Origin: Thermosynechococcaceae cyanobacterium MS004 | GTDB taxonomy: Bacteria > Cyanobacteriota > Cyanobacteriia > Thermosynechococcales > Thermosynechococcaceae | Assembly (NCBI GenBank): GCA_022402525.1 | Contig: JAKRSB010000149.1 | Coordinates: 1 to 64,000 of the forward strand | Direction of reading: 5' to 3' | DNA: 64,000 bases | Shown: positions 50,424 to 64,000 of the stretch, piece after piece | Numbering within the stretch: the first letter of the stretch is position 1 | Layout: each line of letters begins with the position of its first letter | Translations under genes and position numbers: made by a program | The notes under the pieces: generated by a model | Seen by the model: the letters and a program-made list of their open reading frames with translations, nothing else | Databases searched by the model: none | What the model was told of the DNA's origin: nothing

Positions 50424-53400
50424 ATGAAAATTCTGCACACCCAAACGCTTCGCGGCCCAAATCATTGGAGCGTCGATCACTCAAAACTCCTTGTCCTGCG
50501 GCTAGATCTGGCGGAGCACTCCCTTCTTTCTTCAGACAGAATATCTGCTTTCTATAAGAAGCTTTTGCAGACTTTGCCTAGCCTTGAAGAGACCCTTATC
50601 CCTCGTGGGCCAGTCGCCAAGATTAGCCCACGAGGGCAGAGTATTTTTTTAGAGGACATCTTCGCGCAGGTAGCCTTAGAGCTTCAGCGACTAGCCGATA
50701 TGCCTGTTGAGTTTTATCAGAGCCGGAAAGTAGATACTCCAGGTCAAGATACTCTAGGTCAAGGTGCTCCAGATAATTCTTTGGAAGTTACTTCCCATAA
50801 CATTGATCAAAATTCAATTTATCAAAACTCAATTTATCAAATTGCAATTGAATACCGGGTTGAAGCGGCAGGTCGCTATGCAGCAAGGGCTGCGCGGCGT
50901 CTTTGCCAAAGTCTCCTAGAAGCTGGAGTCTACCCTAAAGCCGAACTCCAAAAAGACCTTAAAGACCTAATGGAACTGCGGTCTGAGGAGTCCCTTGGCC
51001 CCACCACCGAAGTGTTGATCCAAGAGGCTGAAGCCCTCGGCATCCCTTGGATATCTTTAGAAACCTGTCACCTACTCCAGTTTGGCTACGGAAAGTATCA
51101 AAAGCGGATTCAGGCGTCGTTGACCTCCCGTAGCAATATTTTGGGCGTTGAACTGGCTGGCCATAAGGAACGAACCAAAAAAATCTTAAGCAGCATGGGA
51201 GCGCCCGTTCCCCAGGGGATCGTCATCTATTCGTTCCGTGAGCTAGAGGATGCGATCGCGCAGATTGGCGGATATCCCGTGGTCATTAAGCCCCTTGATG
51301 GGAATCATGGCCGAGGCATTACCCTGGATATTCAGTCTTGGCAGCAGGCCGAGGTTGCCTACGATCGCGCCAGAGATGTGTCGCGGGGCGTCATTGTCGA
51401 GCATTTCTATCAGGGCCGAGATCACCGGATTTTGGTGGTGAATCATAAGGTCGTTGCGGTTGCCGAACGAGTCCCCGCCCACGTCATCGGCAGTGGGAAA
51501 GACACGATCGCAGCGCTGGTGCGCCAAGAAAACCAGGATGTGCGTCGCGGGAAAGGCCATGATAATTTGCTCACGCGCATTGAGCTAGATGACGCCGCCG
51601 ATGAAACATTGAACCGCCAAGGCTACACCTTGGACACCGTTTTGCTGCCAGGGCAGGTCGCCTACCTACGGGCAACGGCCAATCTGAGTACGGGCGGCAT
51701 TGCCATTGACCGCACCGACGAGATTCATCCTGAAACCCGCTGGCTTGCAGAACGGGTTTCCCGCATTATTGGCCTAGATATTGCCGGAATTGACGTAGTT
51801 ACGACAGATATCACCCAGCCCCTCAGTGCGGCAGATGGGGTGATTGTGGAGGTAAATGCTGCCCCTGGCCTCCGGATGCATGTGGCTCCCAGTCAAGGGA
51901 AAAGCCGGAATGTGGCCGCGCCAATTTTAAGGATGCTGTTCCCCCCTGGAGCGCCCACTCGGATTCCTATTGTGGCGGTGACGGGTAGCAACGGCAAAGC
52001 AGCGCCCACGCCGTTAATGGCCCATATCCTGAAACAGATTTATGGTGCGGTGGGCTTTACCACGGCGGATAGCGTTTATATCAGCGATCGCCGGATTAAC
52101 CCTAGGATTCCAGATGCTCAGGCGCAGCATTCTGAGATGGATCATTCTGAGACTTATCATTCAGAGATTCATCGCCATACCCAGCTCGTTTTGCAAGATC
52201 CAACTGTGGAGGTTGCGGTCTTAGAAACCGCACCAGAGAGCATCTTAGATAATGGTTTGGCCTTTGCCTACTGTGATGTTGGGGTTGTGCTCAATGTGGC
52301 CGCAGATCAGTTAGGGACAGGGGACATTCATACCCTGGACTATAGGGCAACGGTAAATGCCGTGATTGCAAAGGCAGTCCATTCCGGGGGCTATGTCATT
52401 CTCAATGCCGATGATGAACGGGTTGCAGCAATGGCTGGACAGGTGCGCGCTAAAGTCGCCTATTTTTCTATGGAGCCAGAAAACTCACTCCTGCGATCGC
52501 ACATAAGCCAGGGGGGCATTGCGGCTGTCTATGACCAGGGCTGGCTTGTCCTTTGGGAGGACGCCTGTGTCCATCGCATTGAAAACGTGTCCGCCATCCC
52601 GCACACGGTCGGCGGGGCTACTCCTTACTTGATTGCCAACGCCCTTACGGCCTGTCTGACGGCCTTTGTGCAGGGGGTGAGTGTGGCGCAGATTCGCGCT
52701 GCGCTGCACAGTTTCCAGCCGTTGGTACAAAGTCACCCAGGACAGCTTCAGCTCTTTAACTTGGCCCAGAACTTTGCCCAGTCTCCATTTCAGTCTTCGT
52801 TTGATTTGCGCAAGCTGTTCCCAGAGAGTTCCCCCGCAACCCTAGGGAATGGATCGGCCACAAACGGTCAAGCCAATCATGTCCAGCCTATTCCGGCTGA
52901 GTCGCTCAGCAATTCCCTGAAATCTGCGATCGCCCCTAGCAATGGGGGGGCACATTATAAAGACCTAAGCTATAAAGACCTAACTTTGCTCACGGCCAAT
53001 GGAAACGGCCATCTCCAAAACGGCTTTGCGCAGTCGTCGAATGTACAGGCAGGGGACGTTGAAACCAATGGAAAGATCAAGGGTCAGCGCCCATTAAAAG
53101 CTGACCCATTAACAGCTAGCCCATTAGCGGACAGCAGGCAGGCTCTAATTGCGGAAATACTGCCCAAGGTCATTGCTGCGGAGGAAGCGCTCACAGCGAC
53201 TTTCAAAAAAGCACTCAGCAAAGTTGAGACAATAAAGCGGCGCGGGATTCAACGATCGCTGGCTGACCAAACCGCCAAGGCCAAAACCTGGGTTGAGGCA
53301 CAGGCACCTGTTGCGAGGCAGTTTGTGACCCACTCCGCACACAGATTTGCCGAACAGATCGTTGAAAAGGCCACTGAGAATTCCATTATCGCTGGCACGA

Positions 53401-53801
53401 TCGCACTTGCCCTTGGGCAAACGGCAGTAGGTGCGGTAAGCACGAAGGGCAAAGCACTGGGGAGAAATCTGAGCGCGATTGCCTGGAGACGGTTTAAGAA
53501 GGCAACCCAGCTAGTAGACCCGTCTGACTTTGAAGTAGTGCTTGCGGAGCTAACGGTGCTCTTGGGCAAGGATGAACGCATTAAGAAGGAAGGATTTATC
53601 TTCCAAGGCTCTGCGGAAGGTGTAAATGTTTATCTAGAGGACGGTACACCCCTTTGCATTAAGGGCGTCCTACAGGCTTCTAGAGATAGTCGATTGCCCT
53701 ATCGTCTGGGCAAAATGCAGGAGGCGATCGCACTGCTCAAGGGTGAAGTCCTTTTGCAGCCCACAGCTCAGGATGGATCAAAACAGCTTGTAAAGCGCTG
53801 A
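50424..53801 (+). CDS. Cyanophycin-synthetase relative with degenerate Mur-ligase lobe and long C-terminal extension
   Basis: A 1125-residue homologue of CphA. The N-terminal domain (MKILHTQTLRGPNHWS) and ATP-grasp domain (about 215-500: KPLDGNHGRGIT, VIVEHFYQGRDHRILVV, GHDNLLTRI, RATANLSTGG, VIVEVNAAPG) look intact. In the Mur-ligase lobe the P-loop expected as GTNGKTTT reads GSNGKAAPT (521-529) and the TARGGILR motif reads TAPESILD (about 602-609). Similarity stops after PGQLQLFNLA (about 770), so the final ligase subdomain (VDYAHNP and following) is absent. About 345 residues of unknown type replace it, with helical, Lys/Ala-rich and slippage-repeat segments. No cphB is adjacent. It may add only one amino acid, use another substrate, or be structural. 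Confidence 0.88.
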   Translation: MKILHTQTLRGPNHWSVDHSKLLVLRLDLAEHSLLSSDRISAFYKKLLQTLPSLEETLIPRGPVAKISPRGQSIFLEDIFAQVALELQRLADMPVEFYQSRKVDTPGQDTLGQGAPDNSLEVTSHNIDQNSIYQNSIYQIAIEYRVEAAGRYAARAARRLCQSLLEAGVYPKAELQKDLKDLMELRSEESLGPTTEVLIQEAEALGIPWISLETCHLLQFGYGKYQKRIQASLTSRSNILGVELAGHKERTKKILSSMGAPVPQGIVIYSFRELEDAIAQIGGYPVVIKPLDGNHGRGITLDIQSWQQAEVAYDRARDVSRGVIVEHFYQGRDHRILVVNHKVVAVAERVPAHVIGSGKDTIAALVRQENQDVRRGKGHDNLLTRIELDDAADETLNRQGYTLDTVLLPGQVAYLRATANLSTGGIAIDRTDEIHPETRWLAERVSRIIGLDIAGIDVVTTDITQPLSAADGVIVEVNAAPGLRMHVAPSQGKSRNVAAPILRMLFPPGAPTRIPIVAVTGSNGKAAPTPLMAHILKQIYGAVGFTTADSVYISDRRINPRIPDAQAQHSEMDHSETYHSEIHRHTQLVLQDPTVEVAVLETAPESILDNGLAFAYCDVGVVLNVAADQLGTGDIHTLDYRATVNAVIAKAVHSGGYVILNADDERVAAMAGQVRAKVAYFSMEPENSLLRSHISQGGIAAVYDQGWLVLWEDACVHRIENVSAIPHTVGGATPYLIANALTACLTAFVQGVSVAQIRAALHSFQPLVQSHPGQLQLFNLAQNFAQSPFQSSFDLRKLFPESSPATLGNGSATNGQANHVQPIPAESLSNSLKSAIAPSNGGAHYKDLSYKDLTLLTANGNGHLQNGFAQSSNVQAGDVETNGKIKGQRPLKADPLTASPLADSRQALIAEILPKVIAAEEALTATFKKALSKVETIKRRGIQRSLADQTAKAKTWVEAQAPVARQFVTHSAHRFAEQIVEKATENSIIAGTIALALGQTAVGAVSTKGKALGRNLSAIAWRRFKKATQLVDPSDFEVVLAELTVLLGKDERIKKEGFIFQGSAEGVNVYLEDGTPLCIKGVLQASRDSRLPYRLGKMQEAIALLKGEVLLQPTAQDGSKQLVKR

Positions 53802-53942
53802 AGGTAGAGTTTAGCGACCTTTGCCCATCCCCTCTTTAAATTAGGCTGTCACCCGATTAGGGTTGGCGAAGGATCGGATGATTGTCCTGATCTGTAAACT
53901 AGAAAGGTAAAGGCTCATCTGTTTCCCAATTCAGCAGCCCCG

Positions 53943-54263
53943 ATGACAACCGTTTTCTCAGAACACATTCAGATCACGCCTGATGTCTGCGGTGGCAAAC
54001 CCCGTGTTGCAGGTCATCGTATTCGCGTCCAAGACATTGCGATTTGGTACGAGCATCTCAATATGTCCCCTGACGATATTGTTTACCACTACCCCAGCAT
54101 TACCCTAGCTGATGTTCATGCTGCCTTAGCCTATTACTATGACCACCTAGACGAAATTCGTCAGGATATCCGCGAGAGCAAGGCTTTCGCCAGCCAACTG
54201 GCAACCCAGACGCCTTCCATTTTGGAGCGCAAACTCAAAGAAAGAAATGTCAGGGCAGATTAA
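53943..54263 (+). CDS. DUF433 protein, antitoxin-like
   Basis: A 106-residue protein with the DUF433 winged-helix core (ITPDVCGGKPRVAGHRIRVQDI, then YPSITLADVHAALAYYYDH). DUF433 genes normally precede and overlap a DUF5615 PIN-like toxin gene. Here the overlapping partner begins correctly at 54247 but breaks off after about 14 codons, so the antitoxin appears orphaned. Its first ~45 bp and upstream region are duplicated at 54360-54653. Confidence 0.9.
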   Translation: MTTVFSEHIQITPDVCGGKPRVAGHRIRVQDIAIWYEHLNMSPDDIVYHYPSITLADVHAALAYYYDHLDEIRQDIRESKAFASQLATQTPSILERKLKERNVRAD

Positions 54264-54297
54264 GTTTCACCTTGATGAGAACTTATCTAAGACCGCC
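54247..54297 (+). pseudogene. Truncated DUF5615-type toxin remnant
   Basis: The frame starting MSGQIKFHLDENLSK overlaps the DUF433 end by 17 bp, exactly the arrangement of DUF433-DUF5615 pairs. FHLDENL is the N-terminal motif of DUF5615 (PIN-like). After it the sequence no longer resembles the family, and soon runs into a copy of the cyanophycin-synthetase 3' end. Confidence 0.65.
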
Positions 54298-54359
54298 AGC
54301 CATGACAGGGAAAACAAGGGCAAATTCACTCAAGACCCTTCTGAATCGGAGACAATTGA

Positions 54360-54653
54360 TCTCCCTATCGTCTGGGCAAGATGCAGAAGGCGATCGCACT
54401 GCTCAAGGGTGAAGTCCTTTTGTAGCCCACAGCTCAGGATGACCCAAGGCAGCTTGTAAAGCGCTGAAGATAGAGTTTAGCGACCTTTCCATCCCCTCTT
54501 TAAATTAGGCTGTGTCACACGATTGGGTTTGGCTAAGGATTGGATGATTGTCCTGATCTGTAAACCAGAAGGGTAAAGGCTCATTTGTTTCCCGATTTAG
54601 CAACCCCTATTACAGCCGTTTTCTCAGAACACATTCAAATCACGCCGGATGTC
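54360..54653 (+). repeat. Degenerate copy of the synthetase 3' end, spacer and DUF433 start
   Basis: Aligns with 53694-53987. It is colinear without gaps (offset 666) to the synthetase TGA, then has small indels through the spacer and into the DUF433 start (TTTTCTCAGAACACATTCA). It carries an in-frame TAG in the synthetase part, and the DUF433 ATG is lost (ATTACAGCC for ATGACAACC). Non-functional duplication. Confidence 0.9.
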
Positions 54654-54809: not shown

Positions 54810-56504
54810 CTATCCTTTGGGTACTACTCCAGTGGGAAGTTTGTACGCTGGAACAGTGGTGGACGTCTCTTTGCAAGGGTTTCCAACCGCTGGTGTACAT
54901 ACTAGCGCCCCTGTTGCAATGTTATAGAGCTTTTCATCTTTCGACGTAGAGCCTCCAGGAGTGCAGCCGTCAGAGCCGTTTCCGACACCGTTATTACATT
55001 TATTAGAACTACTGCTATTGGTATAGGCTGTAGTTGTCGTTGTGGTTGGTGTAATAGTTGCTAGCACAACCAAATCCTGCATGTCGTAAGCCGTCGAACT
55101 TTTGCTTGTGGTTCCTAACTCAAACAAGTAGATGACTTGATTTTTTGCAAGGGCAACCTTACCAGTTGTGGTATCAATTAGGGGAAGTCCGGTCAAAGGG
55201 TTAGTTGACGTCGAGCTCATGAATGAATCAATTGGTCTTTGCCCACCAAAAGGGGTGAAGAGGGGAACAGTATCGCCATCAACCAGGGTTAAGACTTGCG
55301 ATCCTTGACTTGTAGCAGAGTTGGCGCTGAAGGAGAATCTTGAGCAAACTGAACCATTGCCTGCTATCCCCGTAATGTCCAACCTTGCGCCAGCAGGGAC
55401 ATTATTAAACGTTACATCTTGTCCAATAGCGCCTAATGCTCTGGGAGCACCTGTGATAGGTGTGGTAGTAGTTGAGGTTGTAGACCTACCCCTTCTATTG
55501 GTTGTGGTTGTGGTCGTAGTTACATTGATGTTAATTGTGCCAGAAACGGGAATATTTGCGCCACCAGGGCCGCAAGTAATAGCACCCCCTAAGTTACGAA
55601 CAGTCATCGTTGAGGTTGAAGCCATCGTCACGACTCCGCTGGAACTCGTGAATGCAGGAGGCAGCACTGGAGCCACGGGAGGCGTAGAAGGAGATGAGGA
55701 CGGAGAAGGAGATGGAGACGGAGATGAAGATGAGCTTGCTACGGGAGTAGGTAAAACTGCAACGCTAGCGCCACCTGAGATATTCGACACTTGCGAAGCA
55801 ACTTTTGTCCCTTGAATGCCAGTGCTTATGCTCATTCCATAAATCTCTGGCTGTCCCATGAGCTTTTTGATTTGCCCTAACTGGCTGACTTCAGCGGTTT
55901 TACCGTTAGGATCGACGCAGGCGTAAAATGCTGCATTTCCACTCAAGGTTCCATCAGAGCAAGTTGGTGTAACTGTAGAGCCACCAACCTTATCAATCAA
56001 TGCTTGATGCTTCCAAGTGCTTGAATCGGTACTGTCATAAGTCCCATTGGCATTAAATGTAGGCCCCCAGCGATAAACAACCTGCGGCCCAGACCATTTT
56101 CCGGTCTTGGGCGTGGCAGAGTAATACACAATAGGATCTGCCAATCCAGGTACAGTCAGGACTAAAGCCTTGTTAACGCTGTCTTCATCGATCTGACTGC
56201 TTGGGGGGTTGAAGTTTGAAGAAATCTCTGCGTTGGTTTTGGAACTGCCGGTTGGATCAATACTACTCGCAGTTTGGATTTCCGACGAAATAAAGTTAAG
56301 AGAGCGGTTGATTTCCATACGGCGTTCACTTTTCGCGTTGGCGGTATTGCTGGCATCCAGCATACTTGCAACGCTAGACCCCGATAATGCAACCACTACT
56401 GAGGTTACAGTTGCTGCAACCAATAGGTCGGTCAGTGTAAAACCTTTATCGGATTGTTCTTTGCCTACTAAATTCAACAGCCTGCTAGATAGCTTGGTTT
56501 TCAT
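54810..56504 (-). CDS. PilW/HpsC-like pseudopilin, long form
   Basis: A 564-residue type IV pilin-like protein. The prepilin site is KG|FTLTD with the following hydrophobic helix LLVAATVTSVVVALSGSS; processing and N-methylation by PilD are expected. RRMEINRSLNFISSEIQTA is as in PilW/GspJ and the cyanobacterial HpsC group. The large C-terminal part contains a Ser/Pro tract (about 258-275) and Thr-rich tracts, probably an extended stalk. Start at ATG 56504 with AAGGAG upstream. Last gene of a four-pseudopilin operon. Confidence 0.82.
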   Translation of the reverse strand: MKTKLSSRLLNLVGKEQSDKGFTLTDLLVAATVTSVVVALSGSSVASMLDASNTANAKSERRMEINRSLNFISSEIQTASSIDPTGSSKTNAEISSNFNPPSSQIDEDSVNKALVLTVPGLADPIVYYSATPKTGKWSGPQVVYRWGPTFNANGTYDSTDSSTWKHQALIDKVGGSTVTPTCSDGTLSGNAAFYACVDPNGKTAEVSQLGQIKKLMGQPEIYGMSISTGIQGTKVASQVSNISGGASVAVLPTPVASSSSSPSPSPSPSSSPSTPPVAPVLPPAFTSSSGVVTMASTSTMTVRNLGGAITCGPGGANIPVSGTININVTTTTTTTNRRGRSTTSTTTTPITGAPRALGAIGQDVTFNNVPAGARLDITGIAGNGSVCSRFSFSANSATSQGSQVLTLVDGDTVPLFTPFGGQRPIDSFMSSTSTNPLTGLPLIDTTTGKVALAKNQVIYLFELGTTSKSSTAYDMQDLVVLATITPTTTTTTAYTNSSSSNKCNNGVGNGSDGCTPGGSTSKDEKLYNIATGALVCTPAVGNPCKETSTTVPAYKLPTGVVPKG

Positions 56505-57275
56505 TAATTCTCTAAACTCCTTGTGATAGGTAATGACCATGCGCGGTAGCGCAATCAAAAAATGTGCAAGCTTTTCTGTCCAAACAAGTGAAGGGACAAC
56601 TCAGAGTAAAGTTTTTACTCAATCCATATATGTTCTCCCCTTAAAAACTGGCAGCGGATCTCCAGCCATCTCTAGACCTATGCCTTCTGACTATTAAGCC
56701 CCTCGAACTTTTGAAGAAAGAATTATTTTGCCTATATTCCAACCTTGATGCCAATCCATGCATCTTTATTCTATTTTCGTAGAAAAAAAAGAATCTGACA
56801 CTGGTAGAAATACTGAGATTAGCGAGTGAGGATAGAGTTCAATGATATCTCTATCTCCTTTCTAAGCAGCATGTTAATAATATCTAGAATTGCTTCTAGC
56901 CCACATTCCGCTGTTTCGAAAGGCAAAAAATAATTAAATCCAGAATGCTTTAACGATAAGGCTTCTAAGGATTCAGCGTTTTTGAGCAGATGTCCTAAAA
57001 TTCTCAGTAAGCTTGGTTTATTGAGAATCAGATAGACGGTGATCGCTACGATCCTCATTGCTTCGTTTTAATTATTTTTTGACCCTTTTGATCGGCGGAA
57101 GGTGGGTTCTAGAATTATCGGAGTAGAAACTATGAATGTATATCTTGGCAAGCTTGTGTCAAAAAACATACAAATAGACTTGCATTGCCAATCAAAAACT
57201 TATTTGAATAAATACAGTAGTAGCTTGTTGCCTGATGTATCGATTCAAGTAAACTTAAGTGCAGAATTTGCTATA
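56505..57275. other. Spacer inside the minus-strand pseudopilin operon
   Basis: 771 bp, AT-rich, much longer than the other gaps of this operon. A 79-codon minus-strand frame (56819-57058, MRIVAITVYLILNKPSLLR at its start) is open but has no ribosome-binding site or recognised family. I give it little weight. A promoter for the long pseudopilin could be here. Confidence 0.4.
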
Positions 57276-57962
57276 TTAAAGTGGCGAAATACATTTATCT
57301 ACTACAGCTAAAACCTGAGTGTCTCTGATATCTTTTTGAGCCTTCCAATTATTTTGAGCTGTGACTTCCGCTGCGGTCATGTTGTTAGGATCAGCAGGAA
57401 CGGGTTCAGCTGGTAAATCAACAATTGAGGGCACAGTCGAGTCTGCATAGGTTCCAGTCCGAATAATTCCAATGCCGCTAGAGACAACTAGGCACTTAAT
57501 TACTTGATTGCTGTCTGAATCAGTGCGTCGTACTAAAACAGCTCCAGTATCTTGGGTGATAGGGGTAGTCCCTCTAAGAGAGAACGTAACCGTAGTACCA
57601 GAGCCTCCGCCTGTCCCTACAAGCCCAACAACATTGGCTTGATCTGCAAAATCACGTTCTCCCGTTGGCATACACTCTCGATCTGGCGATGCAACGCCTG
57701 TGACAGCATCAAACTTGACGGCAGAAACTTTCTGAGCGGTTATCATCACAGTGCAAGAACGGCCTTTCTTGACAGCTGAGGACTGAGCTTCTTTCAAGGC
57801 TCCCTCAATTTTAATTGCCGTATCTTTAATCTTTGTATTGGTTAACCAAGCTGACAAACTTGGCGCTGCAACGGCGGCAATTACACCAACGACAACAACA
57901 GCTATAAGGGTTTCGATCAGAGTAAAGCCTTGAGAGCTGCGACTAATAATTTTTTCTTTCAT
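57276..57962 (-). CDS. FimT/GspH-like pseudopilin
   Basis: A 228-residue prepilin with site QG|FTLIE and helix TLIAVVVVGVIAAVAAP. SAWLTNTKIKDTAIKIEGALKEAQSSAVKKG matches the FimT/GspH minor pilin group. Start at the ATG 57962; a TTG eight codons upstream is the alternative. It contains several cysteines and a C-terminal cysteine pair (CLVV, VVDKCISPL) suited to a disulfide loop. Confidence 0.85.
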   Translation of the reverse strand: MKEKIISRSSQGFTLIETLIAVVVVGVIAAVAAPSLSAWLTNTKIKDTAIKIEGALKEAQSSAVKKGRSCTVMITAQKVSAVKFDAVTGVASPDRECMPTGERDFADQANVVGLVGTGGGSGTTVTFSLRGTTPITQDTGAVLVRRTDSDSNQVIKCLVVSSGIGIIRTGTYADSTVPSIVDLPAEPVPADPNNMTAAEVTAQNNWKAQKDIRDTQVLAVVDKCISPL

Positions 57963-58014
57963 TGGATGTAGAATTGCAAACTGCAATAAGAATGTTTTTG
58001 AGGTGACACAAAAA

Positions 58015-58596
58015 TTAGCGACAAGAGAATGAAGCGCCAGGGATAACTTCTGTATAGTACGTATTCATGGGAGTGCCTGTTGCGCTCGTACCCCGATAAA
58101 CGGCATAGGCTATTTGTAGAGTATTGTAAGGAGCCTGGTTCTTAATACTTGTTGTTCGTCTTAAAACATAGGGTCTTTGCCCAATGACGCTCAATTTTGC
58201 AGTATCGGTTTGCTGACCTAAAAGCGTTTGGAGGTCTTTTGCATAGCCACTATCCTGAGTACTAGCATTACATTTCGCAGGTTCAGTTTTATAGTTATCG
58301 CTAATGCCTGCACAATCACTGGCTGCGCTGCCATTTGGGCAATATCCCATATCTTCCCCATTGGCTTCGGATTTTAATTCTGTAAAATCTGATTCAATCC
58401 AGGTTGTGGCTTCACTTGCTTCTTGGGCTTTCACCCGAACGGCTGCGGCTGCCACAAGAGTCTGCATGGCAACGCCCGTCAGGATAACTGTCAGCAACGC
58501 AGCTACAAGCACTTCAACGAGGGTAAATCCTTGATCTCTTTTGATGTGAGGGAGACGATTTAGAATACTAAGGCTTTGCTTGAAAGAAGAATTCAT
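58015..58596 (-). CDS. PilV/HpsB-like pseudopilin
   Basis: A 193-residue prepilin with site QG|FTLVE and helix VLVAALLTVILTGVAMQTLVAAAAVRVKAQ, as in PilV/GspI and cyanobacterial HpsB. It ends in SFSC-R, with a cysteine near the C-terminus typical of a D-region loop. Start at the ATG 58596 (MNSSFKQS). It lies 52 bp upstream of the FimT-like gene. Confidence 0.85.
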   Translation of the reverse strand: MNSSFKQSLSILNRLPHIKRDQGFTLVEVLVAALLTVILTGVAMQTLVAAAAVRVKAQEASEATTWIESDFTELKSEANGEDMGYCPNGSAASDCAGISDNYKTEPAKCNASTQDSGYAKDLQTLLGQQTDTAKLSVIGQRPYVLRRTTSIKNQAPYNTLQIAYAVYRGTSATGTPMNTYYTEVIPGASFSCR

Positions 58597-58689
58597 GTCG
58601 TTACTCAAGGTATGTAGTGGGTTTGTAGTCAACAACAATCATGGGTGCTGGGCAGCACAAGTCATCTGGAAGTCGCCTGTTTATATCTA

Positions 58690-60006
58690 CTATTCTTTGA
58701 TAGGGCCAATTTTAGGAGGGGGCACTGCCTCGACAGGAACATCTGGGTGAGACCATTTAACGCGTGGCTCATCGACTGCAAAGCCAGTCCCCGATGCAGT
58801 CCAACTTTTAACCCAGTAAATTCCTGTATTCTTTTTGTTTACTGTGGCGTCACCGCAGTTTTGGGTTGTGTTGGTTGCGCTTGAAGTTGTACTAATGACA
58901 TCGTAGTTTGGCAGGTGAAGCAGGACATCACAAATGCGTGTCCCTGCATTCAGCGTAAGGGTTCCACTCGTCCCATAAATCTTTACGTCAAACGGCGTGC
59001 AGTTATCGTCTCCTGCACACTGGTTTACGATGGTGCGATCGCTTAAGTCTAAATTTCCACTCACCCAAAGACTAACTCTTTGTCCGGGCGTAATCTTGAA
59101 CGATCCATCAAAGGAAGTGACGTCATACTTATAAATTCCATCAGCATCTGGACTATCGCCTACTCTTGGTAGCTCTTGACCTGGAATCGTCGATATATTC
59201 GATAGTGCGTAGATACCTGTTGTTGGTTTAGGAACACTTGCAGGAACAGTCATTCTGGTTTGGACTGCTGCATAATCTTTACCAGATGGAAAAGTTGCTG
59301 TGGTAGAGCTTCCGCAAGGACGAAGAATATCGCCATTGACCTGCGGGTTACCAGAAACAGACCCGCTGACCCATAAAGGTGCAACGAGCTGACTGGGGGA
59401 AAATACATTGAAGTTAACCTGAACTTGCGAAATTGCTTCGTTAGACTGTCCCCCATTAACGCGGCCTTCTACTGTAAGCGTTCCAAATTGGCTGGCACTA
59501 GAGCTACCGTCAAATCTGTAGCTTAAAAGTCGAAATTGACCTTTTCGCCTTGTTTGATCGGTTTCAGTATCGCTGGGGTCTACTTCTCTCCAGCTAGCGT
59601 TAGCCCAGCCTTGAATCGCGGATTGAGCCGATGAGGGAGTTGAAGTTGTGAGACTGCAAACTGCGTTTAGGTTAGATGGTAGATTAGCGGCCAATGCCCA
59701 ACTTTGTGCTGTACCGGTATCGCTACAAGTTCCATCACTATTCCAATTTCCTACGCAAGTAGGAAACCTAGCAATAGTACGGTATTGATTTATGACTGCT
59801 TGAATTTGGGTAATGCCAGATTGTGCAGCAAGCCTGCTACGGGCGCTATCTTTTGTATTGATAGATGTGACCCTATCGTCCTGCGATCGCACGATCGCCG
59901 TCGTTGCCAACAAAACCAAAATGAGCCCCATCCCCATAGCAAGCGGAATGGCAAAACCCTCTTCACTGCTTCGCTTTTTAACTGCAATAGGGACTTGACT
60001 TTTCAT
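58690..60006 (-). CDS. PilX-like pilus assembly protein
   Basis: A 438-residue protein, first of the operon. The N-terminus EEGFAIPLAMGMGLILVLLATTAIVRSQDD is a prepilin-like helix (possible EG|FAIPL site). It is followed by ARSRLAAQSGITQIQAVINQYR, resembling the PilX N-terminal module (normally AAEAGL). The C-terminal part is beta-rich with cysteine pairs (CVGNW, CAGDDNC). Start at the ATG 60006. It probably belongs to the pilus priming complex with the three downstream pseudopilins. Confidence 0.8.
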   Translation of the reverse strand: MKSQVPIAVKKRSSEEGFAIPLAMGMGLILVLLATTAIVRSQDDRVTSINTKDSARSRLAAQSGITQIQAVINQYRTIARFPTCVGNWNSDGTCSDTGTAQSWALAANLPSNLNAVCSLTTSTPSSAQSAIQGWANASWREVDPSDTETDQTRRKGQFRLLSYRFDGSSSASQFGTLTVEGRVNGGQSNEAISQVQVNFNVFSPSQLVAPLWVSGSVSGNPQVNGDILRPCGSSTTATFPSGKDYAAVQTRMTVPASVPKPTTGIYALSNISTIPGQELPRVGDSPDADGIYKYDVTSFDGSFKITPGQRVSLWVSGNLDLSDRTIVNQCAGDDNCTPFDVKIYGTSGTLTLNAGTRICDVLLHLPNYDVISTTSSATNTTQNCGDATVNKKNTGIYWVKSWTASGTGFAVDEPRVKWSHPDVPVEAVPPPKIGPIKE

Positions 60007-61271
60007 GATGAACCGCATAGGGATAGCTAATACCTGAAGAAAAAGCAATGTTAAACTTCAGTGCATATATTATTCATTCCCTAAATATAAATAAATTCGA
60101 CAAAACCTATCACCGTATTTTTGCGGATTTTTTAAAGAAAAGATTCCTATATATTAATGTTTAGTTAGCTTTTTTATATAGACAGTTAAAGCTGAAGCTT
60201 CAGTCTGTATCCAATTCAACGGTATGGTTTCAGCGTTATTGAGAGGGATCAACGCCTCTTTGCATTAAGGGCATCCTACAAATTTCTAGAGATAGTCTAT
60301 TGCCCTATCGTCTGGACAATAGACAGGAGGCGATCGCACTGCTCAAGGGTGAAGTCCTTTTGCAGCCCACAGTTCAGGATGGATCAAAACAGCTTGTAAA
60401 GCGCTGAAGGTAGAGTTTAGCTTTTTTCTGAGTATCTAGCCTGGAGCTAGAATTCTAGTAACTCAAGGTAAAAGTAGGCCCAGGGGCTTCTACAAATAAA
60501 GTGTCAGAGTAGCATTCAGTAGAACTACTGAGGCGTGTTGATGCTTCCAAAAATATTATTTATTTAGAGAATTTTTCAGAAATTCTAAAATCTTGCCGCC
60601 CTGCCAAAGCTGTACAAGATATTTGCTAATAAGCATTTTAGGTTTTATTACTGCATACATAGAGGTGAACCAGACTTGCAATAGTTTACTTAATCGTTTC
60701 AACATCAAGCATCAAACACAGATTTAACTAGTTTTAACCTGACTGTATAAAGACGTTCAGAAAAGAAAGGTTTCATACACTCTATTCATAAAGTCTTTGA
60801 TTTGAAAGGATTGTAGGATGGCAGCGCTTTTTAGCGCATGCATATTCAGCCAGAGTTTATACTGCTCTGAAAGCTTCTGCAGAAAATATTTTTAAATTAA
60901 TACAAATGTTAGATCAGTTAAATGGGTGGGAATTTTAAGATCATGCAGTTATTGACATGAATATGTGAATAACGACAGCAATTTATTTTCTATGTATTCA
61001 TTCAATTCGCAAATCATTAGAGTTGTTGCCTTATAAAACAGAAAATGGCTGAAAGCCTCTCTATATATAGGTTTCAAACATTTTTGGCAAAATTGACTAT
61101 AACCCATACGGTGTAAGGCTTTTAGCGATTTTGAGAATTAAAAAGCAACAGGTCTATTAAACTTTAAGTTTGAATGAATACTGAAATTCAGCAATACATT
61201 CAGTTAGCTTTTGATTTTTAATTGCCTACTTGAATTCTAGACAAAGCTATTTTTGCAGAGCGATTTAGGGT
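60007..61271. other. Long AT-rich spacer between divergent pseudopilin operons
   Basis: 1265 bp with no supported gene. It must hold the promoters of both operons. The only recognisable element is the third copy of the synthetase 3' end (60252-60421). The remainder has stop codons in all frames at short distance and long A/T runs. Confidence 0.6.
60252..60421 (+). repeat. Second displaced copy of the synthetase 3' end
   Basis: Aligns over 170 bp with 53646-53815 without gaps and with 12 mismatches by hand count, covering the last ~52 codons, the TGA and 14 bp beyond. With the copy at 54360-54653 it brackets the minus-strand pseudopilin operon in the same orientation. Confidence 0.92.
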
Positions 61272-61934
61272 ATGCATGTGTCTAGCAGTAACATCACAAT
61301 CAAGACGATTAGCCGTTCTCGGAACTGTCAACCGATAAGAGGGGCAACGTTGATAGAGGCGTTGATCACGATTGTAGTTGTTGGTGTGTTGGGTGCGATC
61401 GCAGCACCTAGCGTTTCAAAAATTGGCAGTAACCCACTGGTCGATACGACAAATCTTGTGGCGAGTGGGTTCCGTGCAACGCGCACAATGGCAATCTCTC
61501 AGACTTCGCCCATCAAAATTAAGCCCAAAGGTCGACAGGCCATTCCTAGCGGAACTTCAGTAGCGGGAATCAATACTGAGTTTGAGATTTACCGAGCAAC
61601 TTCAACAAACGTAGCCTGTAATGCAGAGACAGGGTGGGCGTTAGACAGGAGGAGCAATATTACTGAAGATTACTTAACTTTTGGAAAGGCAAATGTTTCC
61701 TCCGATAAGCGGATTACCCTGCAAGCTGCACAAGTGGATGGTGTTGCCCTTACCAGCGCGACAAGCTGGGAGATTTGTTTTAATACTCGTGGAATGGCAA
61801 GTACAACGACAACTCGGACAAATGATTTTGTCGGGAACAGCCTAGTGCTGACGCTTCAGGAGGGCAGTGACACAACACAGCGACGACGAATTGAAATTTT
61901 TCCGGCAGGGGGGGTTCAGGTTTATGACAATTAA
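61272..61934 (+). CDS. FimT/GspH-like pseudopilin (second set)
   Basis: A 220-residue prepilin with site RG|ATLIE and helix ALITIVVVGVLGAIAAP. The +1 residue is Ala instead of the usual Phe. FRATRTMAISQTSPIKIKPKG is the FimT/GspH-type segment after the helix. First gene of a plus-strand operon; its last 11 bp overlap the next gene. Confidence 0.85.
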   Translation: MHVSSSNITIKTISRSRNCQPIRGATLIEALITIVVVGVLGAIAAPSVSKIGSNPLVDTTNLVASGFRATRTMAISQTSPIKIKPKGRQAIPSGTSVAGINTEFEIYRATSTNVACNAETGWALDRRSNITEDYLTFGKANVSSDKRITLQAAQVDGVALTSATSWEICFNTRGMASTTTTRTNDFVGNSLVLTLQEGSDTTQRRRIEIFPAGGVQVYDN

Positions 61935-62397
61935 GTTGATCAATAAGTTTTTAACTCAAAAAAAGTCTAAAAATCAAGGTTTTACGCTCGTTGAAACGGT
62001 TGTGGCTATGGTGATGTTTGCGGCCATTATCGGAGGGCTAGCGCCGCTGATGATGGTGTCTCGAACTTTTGCACTGCAGAGCAGTAACCGCATTGGCGCG
62101 ATCGCAGTTGCTCAAGAGATTATGGACTCCCTTCGTCAAGGGGATGTTAGCAACATGCCTCTTTCTGGAACAACTACAACCTTGCCAGCAGGTAACTCTA
62201 TTGCCAATCTTCCTTACAAAGGCAAAATTTACTCTGCAACCGTTACATATTGCGAAATTAGTTCCCACTGCGATGCAACAACACGGCATATCAAAGTTAG
62301 CGTTTACCAAGATGGCGATACTGCCGTTACACCAAGTCGAACCGCTAGTGTACAACCGATTTATCAATTGGAGACTATTTATGTCCGTCTTCAATAA
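61924..62397 (+). CDS. PilV/GspI-like pseudopilin (second set)
   Basis: A 157-residue prepilin with site QG|FTLVE and helix TVVAMVMFAAIIGGLAPLMMVS. VAQEIMDSLRQGD resembles PilV/GspI. I start at the ATG 61924 (MTIKLINKF), overlapping the previous gene by 11 bp; the longer frame only reads through that gene. The end overlaps the next gene by 17 bp. Confidence 0.85.
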   Translation: MTIKLINKFLTQKKSKNQGFTLVETVVAMVMFAAIIGGLAPLMMVSRTFALQSSNRIGAIAVAQEIMDSLRQGDVSNMPLSGTTTTLPAGNSIANLPYKGKIYSATVTYCEISSHCDATTRHIKVSVYQDGDTAVTPSRTASVQPIYQLETIYVRLQ

Positions 62398-63634
62398 ACG
62401 AGCTTTATCACGACAGTTATCCTCAAGGACTGTTAAGGGCTTTACGCTACTTGAGTTAATTGTTGCGTCAGGAGTTTCCCTTACAATTCTGGGCATTGCC
62501 TTAGGAATGCTTTCTGAGCAGCGACGCTGGATGCTGAGTGATCGTACTCGTGCCGTTGCAAATGACAACCTCCGTCTAGTCTCCGATCTAATTGGGCAAG
62601 ATATTAGGCAAGCAGGAGAAAGACTAGAATCAGATGGCTTACTTCCAAGCATTAGTATTATTCCAGGCGCAAATACAACTGATCCCAGTACTCTTGTTCT
62701 ACAGAGGAAACTATTATCTGAGACGCTACCTGTCTGTCAGAATATTGTTGCAGGAGCTACAGGAACAACCACAATTGACGTTTCGGTTATTACAGGTTCA
62801 CCGATCACCAACTGCAACTATTCTTACTCCATGCCTAGCGGGGGTGAACCATCAACTGCTCTAAATACACTTAGGCCAACAGATAACTTGAGATCGTGGC
62901 GAACATTTCGATGTACTCAAGATAGTTCATCGGCAAATGCCGGAACCGACCCCTGCACCACCACCACATCTGGTGCTACAAGTTGGGCCTATATTCATGA
63001 TCCAGTTAATAATCGAGGTGAATTCTTTCAATATAGTGCTGAGGAACAAGGTTCATGCAGTTCCAGTACACTAACATCTCGTACCTGTCAGAAAATTAGG
63101 CGGGTAGGCTCTTCATGGACATACTCCTATACATACGACCCCCTTGGTACAGCCTCTGCTCAGCCTAGGCTGTACCTTCTTGAAGAACGACGATACAGTC
63201 TAGCAGCCGATACCAGTACAAGTCGAACTGACGACTACGTCCTACAGCTTAGTATTAATCGCCAAACTCCAAGGCGTATTGCAAATCAAGTTCGAAATTT
63301 TAAGGCTTGGGCAAAGGTTCCTCCTTCTTACACCTCAGCGCCTTTTAATGCACCTAATAACTGGGGTTGTGCAGTAAGTGGAAGCTCCAGTAATTCTCCA
63401 AATCCTGCGTCTCCTAATCAGTGGTATTGCGACACATTTAATGTCAATGTGAATAATTCTGATCCTGTTCAACGACTTCAAAGTCTTAAGGATTGGCAAG
63501 AATTACAGGGCATAAGAATTACCCTTACAGGAATCAACCCAAATGAGCAGGCATTAAAGGTTGATGAAACCAGCTCAAATAATCTTCTCAAACTCAGTTC
63601 CGAGTTCTTGCCTCGAAACGTTATATCTAAATGA
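62381..63634 (+). CDS. PilW/GspJ-like pseudopilin (second set)
   Basis: A 417-residue prepilin: MSVFNKRALSRQ, site KG|FTLLE and helix LIVASGVSLTILGIALGML, then RAVANDNLRLVSDLIGQDIRQAGE as in PilW. The upstream in-frame extension lies wholly inside the previous gene and is excluded. The region 340-400 has cysteines suited to a disulfide-bounded D-region. Confidence 0.87.
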   Translation: MSVFNKRALSRQLSSRTVKGFTLLELIVASGVSLTILGIALGMLSEQRRWMLSDRTRAVANDNLRLVSDLIGQDIRQAGERLESDGLLPSISIIPGANTTDPSTLVLQRKLLSETLPVCQNIVAGATGTTTIDVSVITGSPITNCNYSYSMPSGGEPSTALNTLRPTDNLRSWRTFRCTQDSSSANAGTDPCTTTTSGATSWAYIHDPVNNRGEFFQYSAEEQGSCSSSTLTSRTCQKIRRVGSSWTYSYTYDPLGTASAQPRLYLLEERRYSLAADTSTSRTDDYVLQLSINRQTPRRIANQVRNFKAWAKVPPSYTSAPFNAPNNWGCAVSGSSSNSPNPASPNQWYCDTFNVNVNNSDPVQRLQSLKDWQELQGIRITLTGINPNEQALKVDETSSNNLLKLSSEFLPRNVISK

Positions 63635-63647
63635 GCATAGTGGGAAA

Positions 63648-64000
63648 ATGAAAAGTCTTTCTTCTCAAACTCAACGGACGTTATTCAATCTCTTATTGAA
63701 ATTACAGCCTGTATCATCGCGTAGCGAGGGCGGCTACATTATTGTCGTTGTCGCTGCAATGATTGTCGCCGTGAGCGGTATGCTCTTGGCCGGAGAGTTG
63801 GTGAGTAGAGTTGACAATAATAGTACTAAGGCATCAGGAAATAGTACCGCAGGCTTTTATGCTGCAGAAGCAGGTCTTAACCTTAGGGCAAAAGCGATTA
63901 AAAGTACGTTTGAAGGGTATAACGTCCCTAGTGGGACTTCACCAAGTAGTGGAAATGCTTGTCGAAGTTCCAGTAACGTAGGGACGGGTGACTTTATATG
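63648..64000 (+). CDS. PilX-like pilus assembly protein (second set, partial)
   Basis: Open from the ATG 63648 to the window end (117 codons). The N-terminus has SEGGYIIVVVAAMIVAVSGMLLAGE as hydrophobic helix and STAGFYAAEAGLNLRAKAI, the PilX signature (AAEAGLN). It follows the PilW-like gene by 13 bp and completes the fimT-pilV-pilW-pilX order. The C-terminus is beyond the window. Confidence 0.82.
   Translation, partial: MKSLSSQTQRTLFNLLLKLQPVSSRSEGGYIIVVVAAMIVAVSGMLLAGELVSRVDNNSTKASGNSTAGFYAAEAGLNLRAKAIKSTFEGYNVPSGTSPSSGNACRSSSNVGTGDFI

Follow-up and report, generated by a model that had tools for sequence, protein, structure and literature searches.

Two divergent minor-pilin operons of different type in a Thermosynechococcaceae cyanobacterium, probable alternative tips for one pilus machine

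On contig JAKRSB010000149.1 of Thermosynechococcaceae cyanobacterium MS004, two divergent operons each encode four putative minor pilins, and we consider it probable that they specify two types of minor-pilin tip complex that serve as alternative tips for one pilus machine. The stretch analysed, called the window here, is the first 64,000 of the contig's 69,936 bases, in a genome of 4.93 Mb and 150 contigs that is rated 100% complete. Read 5' to 3', the minus-strand operon encodes PilX-, PilV-, FimT- and PilW-like proteins (X-V-T-W; mX, mV, mT, mW) and the plus-strand operon FimT-, PilV-, PilW- and PilX-like proteins (T-V-W-X; pT, pV, pW, pX), an assignment made in a preliminary description of this DNA and one with which open reading frames (ORFs), signals and gene order agree. 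Each set has the H-I-J-K make-up (FimT-PilV-PilW-PilX) of a priming or tip complex, as that description had also proposed. In the mechanism we envisage, each quartet would prime pilus assembly at a shared inner-membrane platform and remain at the tip, the set that is expressed would decide what the pilus grips, and the large plus-strand pilin pX may lie at the tip and contact an external ligand, for which DNA is the first candidate and cells or surfaces come second. Genomes, contigs and loci are named by our own labels (G, C and L numbers) where they must be told apart, and publications given by PMC number are cited for those parts of them that were available to us.

Table 1. Features of the paired minor-pilin locus, in window coordinates
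Feature	Coordinates	Strand	Evidence
mX, PilX/GspK-type minor pilin, 438 aa, first gene of operon	60006-58690	minus	prepilin-like signal without acidic residue 5
mV, PilV/GspI-type minor pilin, 193 aa	58596-58015	minus	N_methyl 27.3 bits vs 21.2 cut-off; E5
mT, FimT/GspH-type minor pilin, 228 aa	57962-57276	minus	N_methyl 30.6 bits; E5
mW, PilW/GspJ-type minor pilin, 564 aa, Ser/Pro-rich insert	56504-54810	minus	HpsC model; D5
Divergent intergenic region, 1,265 bp, relic of cphA 3' end	60007-61271		BLASTN; palindrome scan
pT, FimT/GspH-type minor pilin, 220 aa	61272-61934	plus	GspH E 0.00083, just under cut-off; E5
pV, PilV/GspI-type minor pilin, overlapping pT and pW	61924-62397	plus	N_methyl 28 bits; E5
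pW, PilW/GspJ-type minor pilin, 417 aa	62381-63634	plus	HpsC model E 0.00037, under cut-off; E5
pX, large PilX-type pilin, 771 aa	from 63648, cut by window end	plus	predicted pilin helix + beta-solenoid

Each of the eight ORFs was confirmed and is free of internal stops, and a scripted signal reading, which favours an acidic residue 5, recognised a signal of prepilin type and a hydrophobic segment in every one of the proteins. PilX/GspK-type pilins are not known to have an acidic residue 5. This position is Glu or Asp in six of the proteins (Table 1), Leu in mX and Val in pX. Both sets accordingly show the tip-complex signature, in which three pilins are acidic at residue 5 and the fourth, of PilX/GspK type, is not. 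The description of both sets as complete holds for the reading frames, with the qualification that pX is completed only by contig sequence beyond the window (last stop base 65963). Genes of the plus operon overlap or almost touch; in the minus operon a 771-bp gap separates mT from mW.

Profile matches to these proteins are mostly faint. In the protein search the Pfam model N_methyl scored above its cut-off in mT, mV and pV and under it in mW, pT and pW; in a six-frame search of the genome pT also exceeded the cut-off, as did pW together with its frame neighbours, and mW did not. Neither mX nor pX was matched by N_methyl in the protein search, and neither was among the six-frame matches. Models of GspH, PilV and HpsC type match the T, pV and W proteins, all under cut-off: mT matches GspH (Pfam) at E 0.0024 and TIGR01708 (gspH) at E 7.2e-8, pV matches TIGR02523 (PilV) at E 0.00027, and the N-terminal part of mW matches HpsC at E 4.8e-9. 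The best model matches of mV (Pfam, NCBIfam) are of mixed types, and mV holds the second operon position in relatives too. No Pfam or NCBIfam match to mX was found at E up to 1; its relatives by profile lie in the window's family and in other cyanobacterial families. Searched against PDB sequences, the mX profile gave nothing credible (one chain, E 0.041), nor did the mW profile (five chains, antibody fragments).

The minus set belongs to a cyanobacterial operon type whose PilX is smaller and whose PilW is long, and it probably forms an adhesion or motility tip. The preliminary description suggested that its long Ser/Pro/Thr-rich PilW could expose a special tip; the Ser/Pro-rich stretch differs from one relative to another, and in alignment A3 it is Gly/Ser/Thr/Pro-rich in L044 and L051 and short or absent in the remaining four rows, with L049 carrying a long Ser/Thr tract nearer the C-terminus. 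The mW C-terminus (54810-55000) is a cysteine-containing tail, CNNGVGNGSDGCTPG; a similar tail occurs in L049 (CNNGLGNGSENCTPG) and in none of the five shorter A3 rows.

The two sets are two old operon types and not copies of each other. They are very different in sequence, as originally noted: BLASTP at E 1e-3 links only the FimT pair (41% over 65 aa), and the PilX profiles of mX and pX align across 60 N-terminal columns. A genome scan with the PilX alignment yielded 78 named loci, comprising 31 full T-V-W-X sets, 4 V-T-W-X sets, 30 with X alone (a rule-based class that includes L089, whose PilX is split between two frames) and 13 that are incomplete or arranged differently. The 31 T-V-W-X loci come from several phyla; the window's family contributed 11 of them, and others are in records titled Deltaproteobacteria, Acidobacteria, Deinococci, Thermus and Calidithermus. 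In an even sample of 388 genomes from the class (completeness filter 90%), the mX profile matched at least 32 and the plus PilX profile at least 19 at E <= 1e-20, both lower bounds as the best 4 or 2 candidates were scored per genome. Ten candidate X-V-T-W regions lie outside the window locus, and eight keep this order (G276 has one more X at the start, G316 two T genes); the other two are X-X-T-W on contig C2 of G001 and a region of G126 on a contig that is too short. None of the ten contains a T-V-W-X set, although a PilX-like ORF in G211 reaches 43 bits. In a tree of 19 PilX proteins, pX and its neighbour from G009 group together (100/99), and a second type present in the genus, that of contig C18, forms a separate group (100/100); some deeper forks are weak (83/86). 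Because pX and the C18 PilX fall in separate supported lineages, the plus set does not have the appearance of a recent copy. Other combinations also occur: L111 (bacterium Co_bin.267) and L118 (Bdellovibrionales HKST-UBA19) have T-V-W-X and V-T-W-X sets within ~12 kb on the same strand, and the Zixibacteria loci L133, L136 and L138 have two or three PilX-type proteins in tandem.

The pairing itself is conserved. A search of 29 genomes of the family with pX gave a match (E <= 0.001) in 24. A PilX of T-V-W-X type is present in 14 of these (best E 5e-47 or lower); the remaining ten match at E 1.5e-9 or weaker and mostly in frames of HpsA size. Minus-type genes adjoin the T-V-W-X set in nine of the 14, eight times divergently (G000, G001, G004, G005, G006, G009; also G007 and G016, contig ends inside mX) and once convergently (G013). 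Both types are present on separate contigs in G002 and G003, and weaker mX relatives only were found in G010, G011 and G014. In G009, which belongs to the window's own genus, mW is split over two frames. The genes flanking the operon pair differ between genera. Adjacency of these two sets in nine family genomes indicates a pairing beyond chance.

Two sets is a true count locally, but the genome holds a third full set and more. A search of the MS004 genome with N_methyl gave matches at 22 places. The third full T-V-W-X set lies on C18, upstream of a secretin gene and of pilM-, pilN- and pilO-like ORFs, the last three named from order and appearance with no profile run; its proteins (cT, cV, cW, cX) are 28% (pT/cT), 37% (pV/cV), 33-35% (pW/cW) and 41% (pX/cX) identical to those of the plus set. 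Further minor-pilin genes stand as V-T-W on C139 and as T-W on C140 and on C17, and singly on C13, C49, C1 and C128; another two pilins encoded on C139 resemble major pilins. C18 also has a lone minus-type PilX (L200:4964-6373) with no other minor pilins beside it, which could serve the V-T-W set of C139. The total is 24 minor-pilin genes at 11 places, the window's sets counting as two. By comparison the Secretin family has one match in the genome, and three T2SSE ATPases score above cut-off, one of PilB size (667-aa open frame) and two of PilT size (381 and 466 aa). With one secretin to 24 minor-pilin genes, the sets probably share one pilus machine. The alternative tip complexes raised in the preliminary description thus gain ground, from the H-I-J-K make-up of both sets and the one secretin found, whereas its other suggestion, separate kinds of pili, fits less well with a single secretin in a genome rated 100% complete, although in a draft one gene may still be hidden. 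No PilY1 was recognised beside the two sets, and a genome-wide search was uninformative, control genomes also giving no match.

For the plus set, a predicted fold points to what the tip might do. The AlphaFold model of pX, made from 70 of 96 collected sequences (predicted local distance difference test score, pLDDT, 86.9; predicted template modelling score, pTM, 0.84), combines a long helix at the N-terminus with a series of short solenoid-like strands, so that the model predicts a beta-solenoid within a GspK-like pilin fold; an earlier model from 10 alignment rows (pLDDT 51.6) was discarded. Against the PDB, Foldseek ranked Thermus thermophilus ComZ (6qvi) first, at E 1.1e-7 with probability 1.00 over 767 columns, and ComZ was its sole match at E <= 0.001, rank 2 having E 0.056. 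VIA-align 2 likewise gave ComZ a Z of 11.1 with 380 residues aligned, followed by a tapirin domain at Z 5.7. Among PDB sequences the 70-row profile matched ComZ alone at E up to 5, weakly (E 0.11) and in the N-terminal region. ComZ is a DNA-binding competence pilin for which a tip location has been argued, with the GspI-like PilA2 as partner, and in Thermus pilA1-pilA2-pilA3 adjoin comZ (PMC6561018). K98 and K233 are DNA-binding lysines of ComZ. In build, the plus set is predicted to be like the ComZ set, a solenoid PilX/GspK-like pilin beside three minor pilins; it differs in the length of pX (771 aa, as against 498-534 in solved ComZ chains), in having little sequence similarity and in belonging to a genome with three full minor-pilin sets. 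To our knowledge, a ComZ-class tip is known only from Thermus.

The region between the operons was scanned for sites matching the CRP consensus TGTGAN6TCACA, a putative instance of which lies upstream of Synechocystis slr2015-slr2018 (PMC2633013). In genus g2 (Acaryochloris group) all five divergent regions read contain a near-perfect CRP palindrome equal or nearly equal to TGTGATCTAGATCACA, located 210-249 bases from the mX side and matching 9-10 of 10 half-site letters (14-16 of 16 overall) in poorly conserved surroundings. Six g2 loci, 93,476 bases together, contain seven matches of at least 9/10, and five of these are the divergent sites; among 17 other upstream regions, two have 9/10 matches, in G087 and in G316 (an X-V-T-W operon of another family). 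Acaryochloris marina MBIC11017 alone among 29 genomes was reported to have orthologues of slr2015-slr2018 (PMC2633013). These orthologues are likely the T-V-W-X set described here, matched by description and not by sequence. It is conceivable, but in our judgment rather unlikely, that the eight genes form a conserved cassette switching one machine between two unrelated tip types, a DNA-capturing ComZ-class tip and a cyanobacterial X-V-T-W tip for adhesion or motility, with cyclic AMP and CRP acting between the promoters in Acaryochloris.

Other explanations for the paired sets account less well for these observations. The pilins of both sets might instead be expressed together from the promoter region that the operons share and build a single larger or mixed complex at the tip, and the adjacency kept in nine genomes despite differing flanking genes, as well as the single CRP-like palindrome of at least 9/10 between the operons in five genomes, would suit such a joint structure; each set nonetheless includes all of the H-I-J-K types by itself, no T-V-W-X set lies near any of the ten candidate X-V-T-W regions (the PilX-like ORF of G211 aside), and in G002 the two types are on different contigs, the 3.8 kb from the T gene to the contig end giving no pilin match, all of which makes a joint complex unlikely. 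It is very improbable that the two sets are redundant copies with no distinct roles: the genome does have many minor-pilin genes, some of them alone, but the two sets are of different types, free of internal stops and in an order that recurs in distant genomes, and the plus and C18 PilX proteins are separate supported lineages. We give hardly any credence to one set being a secretion pseudopilus, for instance for Hps polysaccharide export as initially suggested. Weak HpsA, HpsB and HpsC profile similarity exists, and the Hps pilins HpsA-D resemble the window's sets in that a large PilX-type protein accompanies three small pilin genes. All scores, however, are far under the equivalog cut-offs (HpsA gives 54.9 bits to pX and 41.7 to cX against a cut-off of 400), the two Hps loci examined among relatives (L201, L202) have the order X-V-W-T, unlike both window operons, and one secretin was found; Hps membership was rejected on gene order, the HpsA scores and the absence of any NCBIfam match to mX. 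Within the family HpsA and the T-V-W-X PilX exclude each other: HpsA exceeds its cut-off in 10 of the 29 genomes, in open frames of 1,396-1,773 aa, G020 and G027 have partial strong matches, these twelve do not overlap with the 14 genomes that have a T-V-W-X PilX, and three genomes have neither. This mutual exclusion suggests a similar niche.

We therefore return to alternative tips on one machine, of which a sharper form would make the plus set a transformation DNA-receptor tip like ComZ/PilA2 and the minus set a motility or adhesion tip. We regard this form as possible, if somewhat short of an even chance. ComZ is the sole significant solved match to pX, well above the rest; Thermus has pilA1-pilA2-pilA3 beside comZ; and MS004 has a ComEC-family protein. 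DNA uptake, one of several functions first listed, thus has a lead in the predicted fold, and one that applies to the plus set; but a fold shows no ligand, and the transformation pilin of Synechocystis is PilA5 (PMC12288463). Several further points weigh against alternative tips or against the ComZ comparison. Synechocystis slr2015-2018 acts in motility and flocculation (PMC5924778, PMC6755745), which argues against DNA uptake by the plus type. The pX-ComZ superposition is loose (root-mean-square deviation 11.6 over 380 residues, TM 0.18 and 0.26); the Foldseek alignment nonetheless covers the whole chain, and the deviation may reflect a different interdomain angle. ComZ was missed in sequence searches by the same family's 10-row profile and by two single Thermaceae PilX proteins. 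Of 15 narrow X-V-T-W loci (L163-L177), 12 start X-V and one has X only, but two (L172, L176) have PilV elsewhere. Between the window's own operons there is no CRP palindrome of at least 8/10 (two 9/10 matches lie elsewhere in the window), nor is there one in G016, and G009 reaches just 8/10. The putative subunit types are drawn from weak profiles, gene order and relatives, and the formation of the complexes, their alternation and their ligands are inferred.

Around the operons the window contains repeats derived from the 3' end of a cphA-like gene, in three copies (53630-53815, 54296-54481, 60236-60421), two of which bracket the minus operon, and the start of a DUF433 gene is partly duplicated (53847-53987, 54513-54653); these repeats are 89-93% identical by BLASTN. 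We rejected the cphA-tail repeats as what joined the two sets: the stretch read in G009 (L047) is arranged alike, and BLASTN shows no repeat of this kind there. The ORF at 50424-53801 encodes a cyanophycin-synthetase-like protein of 1,125 aa that scores under the NCBIfam cut-offs (827.5 vs 877 and 809.1 vs 850 bits) and has a long, unusual C-terminal part and an odd GSNGKAAPT stretch at what we take to be the expected P-loop position.

That different minor-pilin sets give different tips has been proposed for Synechocystis (PMC12288463) and for several minor-pilin clusters of Myxococcus (PMC8833165). Synechocystis pilA9-pilA10-pilA11-slr2018 resembles the T-V-W-X set in having three pilin-like genes, then a further protein, and a predicted CRP site (PMC5924778, PMC6755745, PMC2633013), a likeness of description and not of sequence; unlike the window's set, it has no adjoining X-V-T-W operon described in the available parts of the first two papers. 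Clusters 1-3 of Myxococcus xanthus similarly provide several four-pilin sets per genome with proposed different tips, but each includes PilY1 (PMC8833165), which was not recognised beside the sets studied here. In the open-licence literature searched we found no description of a paired X-V-T-W/T-V-W-X locus, of a predicted ComZ-class tip outside Thermus, of the HpsA exclusion or of the CRP site between the g2 operons. A review states that a fuller understanding is needed of how minor pilins define pilus function (PMC12288463). In this genome two putative tip types stand side by side with, so far as searched, one secretin, and the predicted ComZ-like fold of pX provides a concrete candidate for a cyanobacterial tip receptor. 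Homologues of the same PilX are found in records titled Deltaproteobacteria, Acidobacteria and Deinococci; if the proposal is true, the ComZ-class tip would be a widespread tip type, one that replaces HpsA in the window's family.

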